Shown here piece after piece: positions 4,038 to 19,112 of a stretch of 64,000 nucleotides of DNA (within the stretch, counting starts at the first letter, position 1; each line of letters starts with the position of its first letter). Origin of the DNA: Bacteroidota bacterium (GTDB lineage: Bacteria > Bacteroidota > Bacteroidia > Chitinophagales > Chitinophagaceae); assembly GCA_018266615.1 (NCBI GenBank), contig JAFEAB010000102.1, positions 1-64,000 on the forward strand. The letters are read 5' to 3'. Under the pieces are notes generated by a model. It was given only the letters and a program-made list of their open reading frames with translations. It searched no databases and was not told the origin of the DNA. The position numbers and the translations under genes were made by a program.

Positions 4038-7000
4038 TTGGCATTACCCCATATCATCAAGCATATTTATAATAATGGCGCCGAAGAGGTTATCCGAAGA
4101 GGAAAAAAAATTAATCAACTCGGATTTGTTGAACTGATAGAACACGATGAACTGACCAGTACGGTTGTTTTTCGGGTGAAGGACGACAATTACAGCACAT
4201 TTTATAAAGTGTACATTCAAAAATATACCGATCCCAAATCGATGACGTTGCGGTGTGGCTGCCCGTATAATTTGGGCGATATATGCAGGCACGAAGCGGC
4301 GGCTCTTTTCCGGCTGCAGGATATGGTAGATAAAAACCTCCTGCTTAATGACGCCATTCAGTTTAATCAGCTTCATACAGTAGCGAAGATGAAATACATC
4401 GATCTTAAAATGATCAAGATGCTTTCCTCTCCGTCAATTTATGAGGAAGCCGAAAAATTGTTACGCACTTCAAAAGCCAACATCCTCCATGCGGCCAACG
4501 AACGGGTAGAAGCCGAGGTAGTTGCTTACGGCGATACATACCCGCTGGTTATCCAAAAAAATGATGAGCGGAATTTTGACACTTCCTGCACCTGTGCCGA
4601 ATCCATGCATCCCTTATGCGAGCACAAAGTGATGCTCTTTCTGCAAATTCTGAATGCGTATGGAGCCAATTATTTCGATAGTATCCGTAATTGGGATAAA
4701 GAAAAGAGCAAACTTCTCCAGCTTTATGGCTATAACCTGGCCGATGACCTTACCGGCAAATTTGAGTTTACGTATAAGGAGGGGAAACCGTTTTTAAAGG
4801 TACTCGATCCCTCCATCAAGCGCGTGGCAGGTATTGTTTCAACGCCGCCCCAACCGGCGAAACCCGAACCTGCTATGCAGGAAGTTGACATTGAAGAAGA
4901 AGAACGACCGGCAAAACAATTGGGGATCGTATTTAATTTTAATTATAAAATATACCCCGGATTTAAAATAGATGCCATCCAGGGGGAGGCCAATGATGAC
5001 TTTACCGATTTTTTAGGAAAGGTAGAAACATTGGATCTTACCAAATTTGTAAATACTGAATTATTTTCTGAAGAAGACCGGCAAATTTTCCAACAGGTTA
5101 GGAAAATGCAAAATACGGAGGTGAATAAATACCTCAATCGAAATTCCCCTTTTAGCGGGATATGGGAAAATATCATCCACAGCGAAGAAGATGATTTACC
5201 GGAAGAAACCAAATCGCTAATTGCAGAGTATCTGCAACCGAAATTGCGAAAGCTTTTTGAGGAAAAGGAGAATAGGCCCTTTGTTTATGCGTTGCCGGCA
5301 GGAAAGCAGTTCCGGACGGACAATCTCGAGCCCATATTGTTGGATGCAAATCTGCTCACGCCGCAGTTTAGAGTGGAAGCCGTGGATTCAGGATTTTCAA
5401 TGGGTTGTTTTGTGAAGTTAAAGGGAAAGGCGGTTGAACTCAACGAAAACGAAGCCGAAAGCAGCATCATCATGCTTTACGACCACGTATTATATCTATG
5501 GAAACAACCGGAAGATGTAATGCATGTTGGAAGTTTATTGCAGGCAGGGAAGCTCAATTTTAGTACTGCCGAATGGAATGAACAAATGCAGAAACGGATC
5601 CTGCCGTTAACCAGGGAGTATCATGTGGAGTTTGACCGGTCGTTGGTGAAGGAAGTAAAGACCGATAATCCGGAGATTAAGGTTCAGTTGCAGGAGAAGG
5701 GAGACTACCTTGTTTTTCAACCGGTGTTCACCTATCATGGGATTGATGTAAAGGGGAATACAGGCAAAACTATTATGATCCCGGAAGGAAATAAAATCAC
5801 CATCATACACCGCAACCGGGAAGTTGAGGATGAGTTCCTTCAAAAACTGGAAAACCTGCATTCAATGTTTACCCGGCAGCCGGAAACAGGGAGCCTGATA
5901 TTAAAAGGAGTAGATGTTTTAAAGAACAATTGGTTCTTTCTCTTTATTGATGCCATGAAGGAAATGAAGATGCCGGTATATGGGTTTGAGGCATTACGAA
6001 ACTTCCGGTTTAATACGGCCCGGCCCAATACCCATATTCATGTGAGCAGTGGCTTGGATTGGTTTGATGCCAAGGTTGAAATTGAATTTGGAGAACAGCG
6101 TGTAGGCATTGCTGATATTAAACGGGCCCTGGCAGGGAAGCAATCCTTTGTACAATTGGGGGATGGGACGCTGGGGATACTCCCGGATGAATGGCTGAAA
6201 CGATATGCCCTCCTCTTTAAAGTGGGGGAAGGCAAGAGTGATAAGCTCCGGTTATCGAAGTACCACATGAGTGTTATCGACGATCTGTACGAAAATCGGG
6301 ACGCTGCAGAATTGAGCTTTGCCCTGGATGAAAAATTTGAACGCCTTCGCGAGTTTAAAGATATCCCGGAAATACCGGCGCCACAAACGTTGCATGGAGT
6401 CTTACGCCCCTACCAGGTTTCGGGTTTCCAATGGCTCAGTTATTTGAACGATGTTGGCTGGGGTGGGATCCTTGCAGATGATATGGGGCTGGGTAAAACC
6501 GTTCAGGCGCTTACCATGCTCGATCATTACCGAAACCATACAGGCGCCTTGCAGGCCATTGTTATTTGCCCAACCACGCTTATTTATAACTGGCAAAACG
6601 AAGTGAAAAAATTCACTCCTCAACTGAATTCTGTAATCCATCATGGAAACGCAAGGGCCAGGAATCCACTCCAGTTTGAAGGAATAAATATTATTATTAC
6701 CACGTATGGCACCCTGCGCAGCGATATCCAGATGCTGGTGAAGATGAATTTCGATTTTATTATCCTGGATGAGAGCCAGGCCATCAAGAACCCCTCTTCC
6801 AAAGTTACCAAAGCGGCCAGCCTGCTGAAAGGAAAAAATCGGATATGCATGAGCGGTACCCCGCTTCAGAATAACACCTTTGATATTTTTGCCCAAATGA
6901 ATTTCCTGAACCCCGGGCTGCTGGGCAGCGTCGAGTTTTTTAGAAATGAATTTGCCACCCCCATTGATAAGTTTGGAGAACAGGATCAGAAAGAACACCT

Positions 7001-15084: not shown

Positions 15085-17061
15085 ATGGAGTTTAACAGAA
15101 AAGACCTTAGTACCGGAGAACTGCGTACATTATATAAAGCCATTCTTCTTCCCCGAATGATTGAAGAAAAGATGCTGGTATTGCTTAGGCAGGGGAAAAT
15201 TTCAAAATGGTTCAGCGGGATAGGGCAGGAAGCGATTTCCGTTGGTGTAACAAAGGCTCTTCAAAAGGATGAATGGATCATGCCACTTCACCGGAATTTG
15301 GGAGTTTTTACTTCCCGGGATATGCCCTTGCGGAAACTATTCAGGCAATGGCAGGGAAATAAAGACGGCTACTCGAAGGGAAGAGAACGGAGTTTCCATT
15401 TTGGTACGAAGGAACATCATATATGCGGAATGATTTCTCACCTGGGCCCTCAACTTGCCATTGCAGATGGCGTTGGCCTTTCGTATAAATTGAGGAACGA
15501 AGAAAAAGTAGCTGTTGCATTTACCGGAGATGGAGGTACCAGCGAAGGCGATTTTCATGAGGCGTTAAACACGGCTGCGGTTTGGGATCTTCCGGTCATC
15601 TTTATCATTGAAAATAATGGATACGGTTTAAGTACTCCGGTAAGTGAACAATACCGTTGTGCCAGCCTGCTTGATAAAGCCATTGGATACGGAATAGAAG
15701 GGGTCCAAATAGATGGTAATAATATCCTAACGGTATATGATACTCTAAAGGGAGTGCGCGAATATTGCATTAAAAATCAGAAACCCTATCTTATTGAGTG
15801 CCTCACCTTCCGGATGCGGGGGCACGAGGAAGCCAGTGGTGTAAAATATGTACCTCCCGAACTTTTTGAAGAATGGGCTAAGAAAGATCCGATCCGGAAT
15901 TTTGAAGACTGGCTGCTGAGGGAAGCTGTTATTACACAGGAAGAAGTGGATTCGATCAAAGAAGAAACAAAACGATATATAGAAACAGAACTTGCCGATG
16001 CATTTACTGCAGAATCCATTCAACCGGATACAACTGAAGAATTACAAGACGTGTATGCCCCCTACGTTTCGTCCAAATCCAATTCCACCGGCACCTCTAC
16101 GGAAATGAAATTTATCAATGCCATCAGCGATGCATTGGATTTATCGATGAAGAAACACGCCAACCTGGTGTTAATGGGGCAGGATATTGCCGAATACGGA
16201 GGGGCGTTTAAAGTAACCGAGGGTTTTGTGCAACGGTTTGGAAAATCGCGCGTGCGCAATACCCCGCTTTGCGAAAGTGCCATTGTTGGCGCCGGACTGG
16301 GTCTTGCATTGGAAGGAAATAAATCGGTGATGGAAATGCAGTTTGCCGATTTTGTTTCGGTGGGGTTTAACCAAATCGTAAACAACCTGGCAAAGATTCA
16401 TTACCGGTGGGGCCAAAACGCCGATATGGTAATCCGAATGCCTACCGGTGGAGGCGTAGGTGCCGGTCCTTTCCACAGCCAGAGCAATGAGGCCTGGTTT
16501 GTACACACGCCCGGATTGAAAATTGTTTTTCCTTCCACACCCGAAGATGCAAAAGGGTTGCTGATTGCCGCCATCAACGATCCTAACCCGGTTATGTTTT
16601 TTGAACATAAGGCGCTTTACAGAGGCATAAGCGGACCGGTTCCTGCCGGGTATTATGAGATCCCCATTGGGAAAGCAAAACAGGTGAAGGAAGGCGAAGA
16701 TATTTCTATAATAACCTATGGTAGCGGGGTTCACTGGGCGTTGGAATTTGCACAGGCACACCCCCCTATCTCTGTAGATATTCTTGATCTCAGAACGCTG
16801 CTCCCGCTCGACTATGATGCCATTACAAAAGCGGTGATCCGCACCGGAAAAGTATTGGTGCTTCATGAAGCGACTTTAACCGGTGGTGTGGGTGCAGAAA
16901 TTGCCGCCTGGATTTCGGCTCATTGCTTTGAGCACCTGGATGCCCCCGTAATGCGTTGCGCCAGCTTGGATACTCCCGTACCTTTTAATATCAGCCTCGA
17001 AAAGAACTTTATGGCAAAAAACCGGCTGGAAGAAATGGCGGAAACTTTGTATAATTATTAG
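15085..17061 (+). CDS. 2-oxoisovalerate/2-oxoacid dehydrogenase E1, alpha and beta fused
   Basis: The thiamine-diphosphate E1 enzyme decarboxylates a branched-chain or related 2-oxoacid for transfer to lipoyl-E2. The alpha part spans residues 1 to about 330, with the TPP motif GDGGTSEGDFHEALNTA starting at G148 and closing at IENN. A short Ser/Thr linker follows near residue 335. The beta part spans about 345-658, with GQDIAEYGGAFKVTEGF, AIVGAGLGLALEG and a C-terminal TGGVGAEIAAWI. Such fusions are common in Bacteroidota. E2 and E3 are not nearby. The exact substrate (branched-chain, pyruvate or acetoin-like) cannot be fixed from sequence alone. Confidence 0.92.
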   Translation: MEFNRKDLSTGELRTLYKAILLPRMIEEKMLVLLRQGKISKWFSGIGQEAISVGVTKALQKDEWIMPLHRNLGVFTSRDMPLRKLFRQWQGNKDGYSKGRERSFHFGTKEHHICGMISHLGPQLAIADGVGLSYKLRNEEKVAVAFTGDGGTSEGDFHEALNTAAVWDLPVIFIIENNGYGLSTPVSEQYRCASLLDKAIGYGIEGVQIDGNNILTVYDTLKGVREYCIKNQKPYLIECLTFRMRGHEEASGVKYVPPELFEEWAKKDPIRNFEDWLLREAVITQEEVDSIKEETKRYIETELADAFTAESIQPDTTEELQDVYAPYVSSKSNSTGTSTEMKFINAISDALDLSMKKHANLVLMGQDIAEYGGAFKVTEGFVQRFGKSRVRNTPLCESAIVGAGLGLALEGNKSVMEMQFADFVSVGFNQIVNNLAKIHYRWGQNADMVIRMPTGGGVGAGPFHSQSNEAWFVHTPGLKIVFPSTPEDAKGLLIAAINDPNPVMFFEHKALYRGISGPVPAGYYEIPIGKAKQVKEGEDISIITYGSGVHWALEFAQAHPPISVDILDLRTLLPLDYDAITKAVIRTGKVLVLHEATLTGGVGAEIAAWISAHCFEHLDAPVMRCASLDTPVPFNISLEKNFMAKNRLEEMAETLYNY

Positions 17062-17077
17062 TTTGGAGGTATAAATT

Positions 17078-17119
17078 ACGAGTTACGAGTTACGAGTTAG
17101 GAGTTAGGAGTTACGAGTT
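17078..17119 (+). repeat. Tandem 7-bp repeat array, ACGAGTT, six units
   Basis: Six direct heptamers: three ACGAGTT, two AGGAGTT and one ACGAGTT, 42 bp in all, directly downstream of the E1 gene. The reverse-complement array lies at 18473-18549, so the two arrays face each other around the ankyrin gene. Confidence 0.95.
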
Positions 17120-17291
17120 GGGAATGATGGACGTTTAAATTTCTAATTCAGAGCTTGGTGATGATTTTCGGTGGAGGGGGTATTTAGCAATAAAGGTTAA
17201 TTAATGATCTAATGTGTAATAAAATTCAAACGCTTAATTGAAGTACTTAGACCCCCCTAATTCCATTGTGATGTTAGCGGCTGCTCAAATT

Positions 17292-18443
17292 TTATTTTGC
17301 TCCTGCATTTATTAAAAGTGTTTCGCATTGGCTTAAGATCTCTTCATCCTCACAAGTATTAAAATCACCTAAAATTTTGTCCAAAGCAGAAGAGGTAATA
17401 TATACTTGCCCGTCTTCTGGAAAATAATTGAAATTCGGATTTGCACCATTGTCGAGTAAAAATTTCATCAAAGTCGGATTATGAGCATATGCAGTGAATT
17501 GTAGCGCATTCACCCCGCCATAACCAAAAAAGTTTATATCCGCACCAAGTTCGAGCATTTTTTGGGCAATGAAAATTGTTTGCATGGTAAATGCTTCTTT
17601 GCCTGATAACTCAGTGTCACAAAATTTGTCATTAAAGTTTCGAAACACTTTTGTAAACGCTGTTTCTCCATCCGAATCTATCGCATTAATATTAGCTCCT
17701 TGATTAACGGCGATAATAACCCCTTCTAAATTTGAATTTTCTGCTGCTATAAAAAGCGACTTTTCAGTTTCAGTTATCTCGTTGACTCCGTCAGTGGCAT
17801 TTAGTAACCCTAACAATCGGCTGTCGCAATAAACAAAATATTCCTTTATTTCTTCAAAAGGAAATCTTTGATTTTTTAGGTCGAATAAATAATGATTTTC
17901 ACCTTTACTAAATTGCTTATAAACCTTATCTTTTATTTCATCCGTAATTTTATCTTCGTTTAAAGAAACCTCTAGTTGTAAATCGTTGCTGTTATAACCA
18001 ATATGTTCGTGTCTTTTAAAAACGACTCGTTCGCTTGAAACAATTTTTGTGTCTTTACAAACTTCCTTAAGCATTTGATAAAAATAGGATTCTGCTTTTT
18101 TTCTGTTTTCACTTATTAAAACAAGTTCTTTTATTGGGTCGTTTGATTTGAGCCATTTATACTCCAGGTAGTCAAAGTATTTTTTCTTTGTCAAATCTTG
18201 TGCAATTTCCCAAACCTGGATTGCAAAGTCTAGTTTAAGATTACGAACTTTTAGGTTGACAGATACATCTTTGTTTGAAATGGTTGACTCGAAACAAAGT
18301 TGTGATAAAGAGTTATTTGCTTTAATTTGGTAAGGTTGATAATTTCCGGAAAATCTGTCGTTTCGTGTAATATGCAAAACTGATCTTATGTCTTCAGTCA
18401 ATTGAAATTCGTTGCCAGTATATCTTTCAGCAAATGGTTTCAT
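17292..18443 (-). CDS. Ankyrin-repeat protein, AT-rich, between inverted heptamer arrays
   Basis: The 383-residue protein has an N-terminal region of about 220 residues that I do not recognise and a C-terminal region with ankyrin-type repeats (about 225-383), for example NLEGVIIAVNQGANINAIDSDGETAF and NPTLMKFLLDNGANPNFN. There is no signal peptide or membrane segment, so it is probably cytoplasmic and binds a protein partner. Its codons are visibly richer in A and T than those of the flanking genes. With the inverted repeat arrays on both sides, this suggests an acquired gene. Between 17120 and 17291 I see nothing else. Confidence 0.75.
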   Translation of the reverse strand: MKPFAERYTGNEFQLTEDIRSVLHITRNDRFSGNYQPYQIKANNSLSQLCFESTISNKDVSVNLKVRNLKLDFAIQVWEIAQDLTKKKYFDYLEYKWLKSNDPIKELVLISENRKKAESYFYQMLKEVCKDTKIVSSERVVFKRHEHIGYNSNDLQLEVSLNEDKITDEIKDKVYKQFSKGENHYLFDLKNQRFPFEEIKEYFVYCDSRLLGLLNATDGVNEITETEKSLFIAAENSNLEGVIIAVNQGANINAIDSDGETAFTKVFRNFNDKFCDTELSGKEAFTMQTIFIAQKMLELGADINFFGYGGVNALQFTAYAHNPTLMKFLLDNGANPNFNYFPEDGQVYITSSALDKILGDFNTCEDEEILSQCETLLINAGAK

Positions 18444-18472
18444 TTTTTAATAATTCGTCATACGCCATTCTA

Positions 18473-18549
18473 AACTCGTAACTCGCAACTCGCAACTCGT
18501 AACTCGTAATTCGTAATTCGTAACTCGTAATTCGTAACTCCTAACTCGT
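18473..18549 (+). repeat. Tandem 7-bp repeat array, AACTCGT, eleven units
   Basis: Eleven contiguous heptamers, AACTCGT with variants AACTCGC, AATTCGT and AACTCCT, cover 77 bp. AACTCGT is the exact reverse complement of the ACGAGTT unit at 17078-17119. The array sits 29 nt upstream of the ankyrin gene start and 11 nt past the stop of the next minus-strand gene. Confidence 0.95.
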
Positions 18550-18560
18550 CATCCCTAAAT

Positions 18561-19112
18561 TCAATCTCCCCTGCTCCCTTTTTCGCCTACAAACCAATGT
18601 TCTTTGTCTTTAAACAGCACATTAAAACTGGTTAGGGTTCCATAAATGCGGGTAATATATTGCTGGATATTAACCTTGTCTTCGTCGGTCAATACTTTAT
18701 GACTGTTGATATTTTGTTCCAATACCCGAAGCCTGTCGCGAAGCATTACAATTTTATGAAAGAATACATCAATGGGGAGTTCTTTGGGTTTGATCGATTT
18801 GTCTGCGGGCTGCAAAATAAGGGTTCCTCCAATCCATCGGTCGCCCAGTTTAACGGTTTCGCTCACTTCAGCCCATTGCCTTAAAATTTTTAATAAGGAT
18901 ATCTCCAGTTCTGCGGTGGTTTCAACCTCCGGACTTACATTTTCCGGAATAATTTCATCGAGGTGAGGATCCGTTTTATCCACCTCTTTAGTACCGTGAT
19001 TGATAAAGGAGATGAGGTAAGTGGCATACCGGATGCCCACCACTACGCCAGGTCCAAAATGCGTATGTTGTAAACGGGAACCAACTCCCAGGTTCAATTG
19101 TATTTCTTCCAT
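18561..19112 (-). CDS. Uncharacterised protein with N-terminal Tudor-like segment
   Basis: I do not recognise a named family. The 183-residue protein begins with a motif, VGSRLQHTHFGPGVVVGIRY, of the kind found in small beta-barrel (CarD/UvrD C-terminal Tudor-like) nucleic-acid or protein interaction modules. Two mostly helical segments follow. It is soluble, without signal peptide. It lies 32 nt downstream of the next minus-strand gene and may be in an operon with it and the PurN fusion. Confidence 0.6.
   Translation of the reverse strand: MEEIQLNLGVGSRLQHTHFGPGVVVGIRYATYLISFINHGTKEVDKTDPHLDEIIPENVSPEVETTAELEISLLKILRQWAEVSETVKLGDRWIGGTLILQPADKSIKPKELPIDVFFHKIVMLRDRLRVLEQNINSHKVLTDEDKVNIQQYITRIYGTLTSFNVLFKDKEHWFVGEKGSRGD

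Follow-up and report, generated by a model that had tools for sequence, protein, structure and literature searches.

The locus raises the question of why a single AT-rich gene should lie between two oppositely oriented arrays of the same heptamer, and whether gene and arrays belong together. In the window (the whole stretch of 64,000 nucleotides that was analysed), repeat search and inspection of the sequence delimited a left arm of six ACGAGTT-type units (17078-17119, plus strand, inward reading GTTACGA) and a right arm of eleven units (18473-18549, minus strand, AACTCGT on the plus strand) that faces inward like the left one. The ORF list and Pfam place between them the gene of a 383-aa ankyrin-repeat protein (17292-18443, minus strand), whose start codon lies about 30 bp from the right arm and whose stop codon is separated from the left arm by an AT-rich spacer (17120-17291). 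On the outer side, a 16-bp remnant of intergenic spacer (17062-17077) leads from the left arm to the stop codon of an E1-type dehydrogenase fusion (15085-17061, plus strand, with domain matches to E1_dh, Transket_pyr and Transketolase_C), and 11 bp lead from the right arm to the stop codon of a conserved 183-aa protein (18561-19112, minus strand), which was found in 31 of the 39 genomes searched and for which neither Pfam nor NCBIfam gave a match that passed its cut-off. With arms so close to both flanking stop codons, the unit occupies the entire convergent spacer between the E1 and 18561 genes.

Tandem Repeats Finder called both arrays (17076-17119, TTACGAG, 6.3 copies, 94% matches; 18473-18549, AACTCGT, 11 copies, 88% matches). 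Two-unit heptamer matches with at most 2 mismatches numbered 15 in the window, compared to 0.13 expected and a maximum of 1 in shuffles, which together with these calls rules out a chance repeat. The count of six and eleven units, exact reverse complements of each other in strict 7-bp register, had been given in an earlier note made from the sequence, and it was confirmed for the heptamer unit; the arms are not unit-for-unit copies, with four ACGAGTT and two AGGAGTT on the left and, read on the minus strand, five ACGAGTT, three ACGAATT, two GCGAGTT and one AGGAGTT on the right. The same note called the enclosed gene AT-rich and unlike its neighbours, and its GC content of 0.332 is indeed the lowest among the 46 window ORFs of at least 120 aa. 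A very long imperfect stem around the gene, also suggested there, holds as a prediction: the arm-arm duplex, taken as RNA, was computed at -71.7 kcal/mol, compared to a mean of -24.3 and a minimum of -40.5 kcal/mol over 500 shuffles, and the predicted plus-strand fold of the entire stretch contains 51 arm-arm pairs. No known RNA family was matched by Rfam anywhere in the window. Recombination between the inverted arrays could in principle flip the ankyrin gene and cause phase variation, and promoter switching by DNA inversion reportedly occurs in Bacteroides fragilis. The inverted repeats around the gene, 42 and 77 bp long, would suit such an invertible segment, but there is no recombinase gene inside and the neighbours are convergent, so that a flip would not obviously switch a promoter; we regard this explanation as highly improbable.

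The ankyrin repeats score above the Pfam cut-off (Ank_5, 2.1e-7) and span approximately residues 225-340. Searches of 59 relatives and 395 phylum genomes with the protein returned ankyrin-repeat matches only, and residues 1-200 found no relative in these genomes or in viral contigs. A viral origin of the gene was rejected for want of a relative in the viral contigs. Two candidate identities were discarded as generic ankyrin matches: the NCBIfam effector AnkH (56 residues, 20.9 bits compared to a 600-bit cut-off) and PADLOC PDC-M72A (52 residues covered). A single-sequence AlphaFold model had a mean pLDDT of 36.6 and was unusable.

The history of the junction was followed on the 3' side of the E1 gene in 16 relatives, together with the own copy. 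In none of the 16 did the interval from E1 to the following gene contain an array, and none has the ankyrin gene. In G029, E1 is followed after 447 bp by the 18561 and 19145 genes with no array; E1 directly adjoins 19145 in 7 of the 16 relatives and other genes in another 7. Since the E1/18561/19145 block occurs in relatives without arrays or ankyrin gene, the arms and the gene are, within the set of genomes examined, confined to this lineage. The earlier note had proposed to look between E1 and 18561 for an empty site with a single array; no relative examined has one, and the junction is found without arrays. No target-site duplication was recognised by eye, the relatives being only about 71-79% identical in the neighbour proteins and too distant to define the ends. 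In G016 a different gene, presumably secreted ceramidase-like, occupies the interval from E1 to 18561, which is free of arrays (L426 2258-3553), and this spacer may thus accept insertions generally. The latter observation suits the main rival to a single unit, namely that the ankyrin gene came by ordinary horizontal transfer and that two independent arrays arose later on both sides, by slippage or by spread in spacers, without relation to its arrival. We find this unlikely, though it deserves serious weight; the arms that fill the whole spacer up to the flanking stops argue against it. Period-7 repeats were also seen inside the E1 coding sequence of two relatives (L389 2571-2598 in G022 and L391 1515-1542 in G014), close to the point at which the E1 protein match divides into two halves, as though an array of heptamers had lengthened an internal linker.

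The earlier note had proposed a genome search for further ACGAGTT arrays and for what they flank. A tolerant pattern (3 mismatches per 21 bases) run over 2.9 Mb matched the heptamer at three places only, the ankyrin locus, C105 and C107, and a survey of period 6-10 arrays in 337 kb of this genome (the window, the two other loci and 20 contig starts) found none beyond these three. At C105, arrays flank both sides of the only S23 gene of the genome (PF05635 / TIGR02436, a four-helix-bundle protein of the family named after 23S rRNA intervening sequences) as an inverted set: an ACGAGTT-type array on the left (L031 4789-4899) and, on the right, a degenerate direct array (about 5434-5583) followed by an inverted one (5598-5691). 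The neighbours of this S23 gene are protein genes, and its GC content is 0.33, as for the ankyrin ORF, compared to 0.42 in a genome sample. The link to S23 was absent from the earlier note and is not visible from the window alone. C107 (L032 4742-4905) carries a lone array in which ACGAATT units alternate with ACGAGGT units; it lacks both a partner array and cargo and lies downstream of a gene that we take to be rlmN-like and followed by a small gene on the other side. Similarity between the array edges of C105 and C107 (3 of 200 shuffles, in one of 36 comparisons) was not significant after multiple testing. An array standing alone at C107 is what independent arrays would predict; in a genome so poor in arrays, however, the same unit with inward polarity on both sides of one gene would then be a coincidence.

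S23 genes proved to be associated with inverted arrays far beyond this genome. PF05635 matches were found in 38 of the 39 genomes searched (own included), with up to 12 per genome, and 71 loci were retained: the 30 best-listed, the first 40 further matches listed and the own copy. These loci are not fully independent (L095/L121 and L144/L146 are neighbours), and L111 was dropped from the flank comparison for its short flanks, leaving 70. Left and right 350-bp flanks were compared, scores of at least 16 being counted and homologues of the 18561 gene serving as control. Inverted flank repeats were present at 29 of the 70 S23 loci, compared to direct repeats at 5/70, 0/70 in shuffles and 0/27 for the control gene (Fisher p 1e-5 for S23 against control). 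The arms consist of repeated 7-9 bp units, with units that vary between copies, and their polarity is consistent: GTT outnumbered AAC in 18 left arms and AAC outnumbered GTT in none, with 11 ties. Period-7 arrays lay near 29 of the 71 S23 loci and near none of 29 control genes. Phylum-wide, inverted arms were seen at 9 of 30 S23 loci, with 1 direct case and 1 in shuffles. S23 copy number and array matches were not correlated across 24 genomes (rho 0.11, p 0.62).

The arrays themselves were then taken as the starting point. Five GTTnnnn units in a row, searched as a generic pattern, occur in 32 of 40 congeners, with a dominant unit that varies among the congener genomes listed; the reversed-pattern control of this search was not clean, because the arrays also contain TTG periodically. 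We collected 60 array-centred regions from G011 (20), G006 (12), G025 (8) and G003 (20 of about 30 listed places), the counts leaving out G022, G454 and G009. These regions hold 94 arrays, whose midpoints fall within ORFs of at least 150 aa in 9 of 57 cases in one set and 0 of 37 in the other. Neighbouring arrays at most 2.5 kb apart form 24 inward, 4 outward and 4 direct pairs, and below 1 kb the figures are 23, 0 and 2. Most of the inward pairs (21 of the 24) are cargo-free, with gaps of -7 to 127 bp, two enclose an S23 gene (604 and 449 bp) and one, in G003, encloses across 1811 bp a 528-aa housekeeping-type protein, which we take to resemble release factor 3. No acquired gene other than S23 was found inside the 24 inward pairs of the four congeners. 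Cargo-free arrays in intergenic positions had been named beforehand as evidence against a mobile unit, and such arrays do exist, both as the lone C107 array and as the 21 cargo-free pairs of these four relatives. The spacers of some cargo-free pairs are related in sequence: in G003, 5 of 55 spacer comparisons exceeded all 100 shuffles, and the sequence shared by L432, L439, L444 and L445 indicates that at least these four are copies of one dispersed element.

This survey bears on two of the alternatives. Single arrays are common in relatives, as independent arrays would require, and the inward pair around the native-looking housekeeping gene, found in an array-rich genome, shows that two separate arrays can come to flank a gene, which counts against reading the ankyrin locus as one element. 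The other alternative is a device acting at the RNA level, in which the arms would pair as a long transcript stem, as in the intervening sequence (IVS) of 23S rRNA, and would act on transcription termination, message stability or cutting by RNase III. The ankyrin message would begin just past one arm and stop short of the second, the predicted duplex is far more stable than in any shuffle, and the Coxiella IVS offers a precedent in which complementary ends, RNase III cutting, an S23 ORF and heptamers are combined (PMC4990558). In two G003 inward pairs (L436 3021-3152 and L444 3041-3213), the arms were seen to carry different heptamers with only GTT in common, GTTGGAG or GTTCATA on one hand and GTTTAAG on the other. 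Several G003 pairs whose two heptamers share only GTT/AAC should pair poorly, which favours a recognised motif over pairing alone, and we judge a purely RNA-level device to be quite improbable.

On this basis, we propose, with slightly more conviction than doubt, that both arrays belong, as its arms, to a single inward-facing, S23-associated heptamer element of a class which is dispersed in the genus and here encloses an AT-rich ankyrin gene. In its commonest form such an element would be cargo-free, with a pair of GTTnnnn arrays pointing towards each other over about 0-130 bp, and in a second form it would enclose an S23 gene. The ankyrin copy would have entered the conserved convergent E1-18561 spacer in this lineage, arms and gene arriving as one unit, the element holding the gene or having captured it. 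The arms may act as paired ends, either as a DNA hairpin or as an RNA stem around the gene in the manner of the 23S rRNA IVS, and the element may spread through a factor acting in trans, for which the S23 protein encoded at C105 is a candidate. Mobility and function of the element are inferred. The mobile unit suggested by the earlier note thus came out strengthened, by the lineage-private stretch and by the inward heptamer pairs recurring in the genus, and not proven, for want of a single-array site and of a recognised target duplication or excision product. Apart from the housekeeping gene of G003 and the lack of any acquired non-S23 gene in the inward pairs of the congeners, we counted against a single element that the two arms are not copies of each other unit by unit, that S23 and array numbers do not follow each other, that many ACGARTT arrays of other phyla occur without S23 and that polarity is reversed at two cyanobacterial S23 loci. 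The ankyrin locus represents an unusual copy within a broader pattern that is reproducible, and the pattern is of more interest than the locus.

In their anatomy, the closest parallel to these elements would be REPINs, doublets of REP sequences that form hairpins and whose mobilisation is attributed, tentatively, to REP-associated tyrosine transposases (RAYTs) (PMC3116915). Both would be made up of inverted doublets scattered through intergenic DNA, with short spacers, with a dedicated gene that has repeats beside it (RAYT there, S23 here) and with singlets as well (PMC3116915). The likeness extends to the extragenic position and to the 23 inward and 0 outward doublets within 1 kb in the four relatives; the arms, however, are tandem 7-mers here, whereas REPs are palindromic. 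Heptamer arrays lay near 2 of 20 Y1_Tnp (RAYT-type) genes of relatives, and the inverted flanks present at 5 of these 20 genes are GC-rich and REP-like, not heptamers. RAYT-driven arrays were therefore ruled out, RAYT-type genes having REP-like flanks of their own. The 23S rRNA IVS of Coxiella shares with the ankyrin locus its complementary ends and a stem, a predicted one here and a 28-bp one in Coxiella, and it has three tandem heptamers directly before the S23 ORF that it encloses; the S23/IVP protein is given there as having no known function (PMC4990558). By contrast, the ankyrin locus lies between protein genes and not in a 23S rRNA gene, and its cargo is an ankyrin gene, an S23 ORF being enclosed only at C105.

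S23 proteins are also said to resemble Avd, the partner of the reverse transcriptase in diversity-generating retroelements (PMC10053308). RVT_1 was matched in 1 of the 11 genomes searched and not in the own genome, which leaves an Avd-like copying route without its enzyme here; a reverse-transcriptase route was accordingly rejected for this genome. Heptamer arrays have a wider record, the STRR sequences of cyanobacteria being related ones. Intergenic 7-bp tandem arrays of TAACTGA and related units have been described in Beggiatoaceae, Cyanobacteria and Bacteroidetes, with a suggested role in gene rearrangement in Bacteroidetes, and a text search of that article for 'helix bundle' and 'intervening' gave no link to S23 (0 occurrences) (PMC4679880). 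The unit here differs (TAACTCG), as do the inverted inward pairs. MITEs are likewise short non-coding elements with inverted ends and many copies, but here the ends consist of tandem arrays that vary in length and sequence, and no target duplication was recognised.

S23 is, to our knowledge, not a known transposase. More speculatively, S23/IVP proteins and inward heptamer arrays might together make up a selfish system of two parts, corresponding to RAYT/REPIN but without a transposase, in which S23 genes would reside in long array-armed elements, cargo-free hairpins would be their miniatures, foreign genes would be picked up and the S23 of the IVS would be one branch; taken as a whole we consider this rather improbable. 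In the open-archive literature, subscription journals and preprints lying outside that scope, nothing recognisable by title or abstract connected inverted heptamer arms in Bacteroidota with S23 genes, which is not proof of novelty, and the nearest published parallel is provided by the Coxiella heptamers. The association places the abundant S23/IVP protein in one testable context with the heptamer arrays, which were noted long ago, with the ankyrin locus as a candidate copy carrying another gene as cargo.

Outside the congener set, a scan for ACGARTT arrays returned at least 117 stretches, of which 80 loci were taken. Among the matches listed, other phyla included, S23 was present in 5 of the 80 loci and most had none. 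In 3 of these 5, inverted arrays surround the S23 gene (L166, Nostoc L197 and Dolichospermum L221), the polarity being reversed in the two cyanobacterial loci. Cargo-free inward ACGARTT pairs, 60-80 bp apart, were noticed in distant hosts sharing the same heptamer, namely Odoribacteraceae (L171 1407-1523), Akkermansia (L172 6895-7037), Chitinophaga (L200 2903-3046) and Prevotellaceae (L214 6782-6922). One further locus, L225 from a Chloroflexaceae MAG, packs about 26 short arrays of period 7, built from many different units, into 5 kb.
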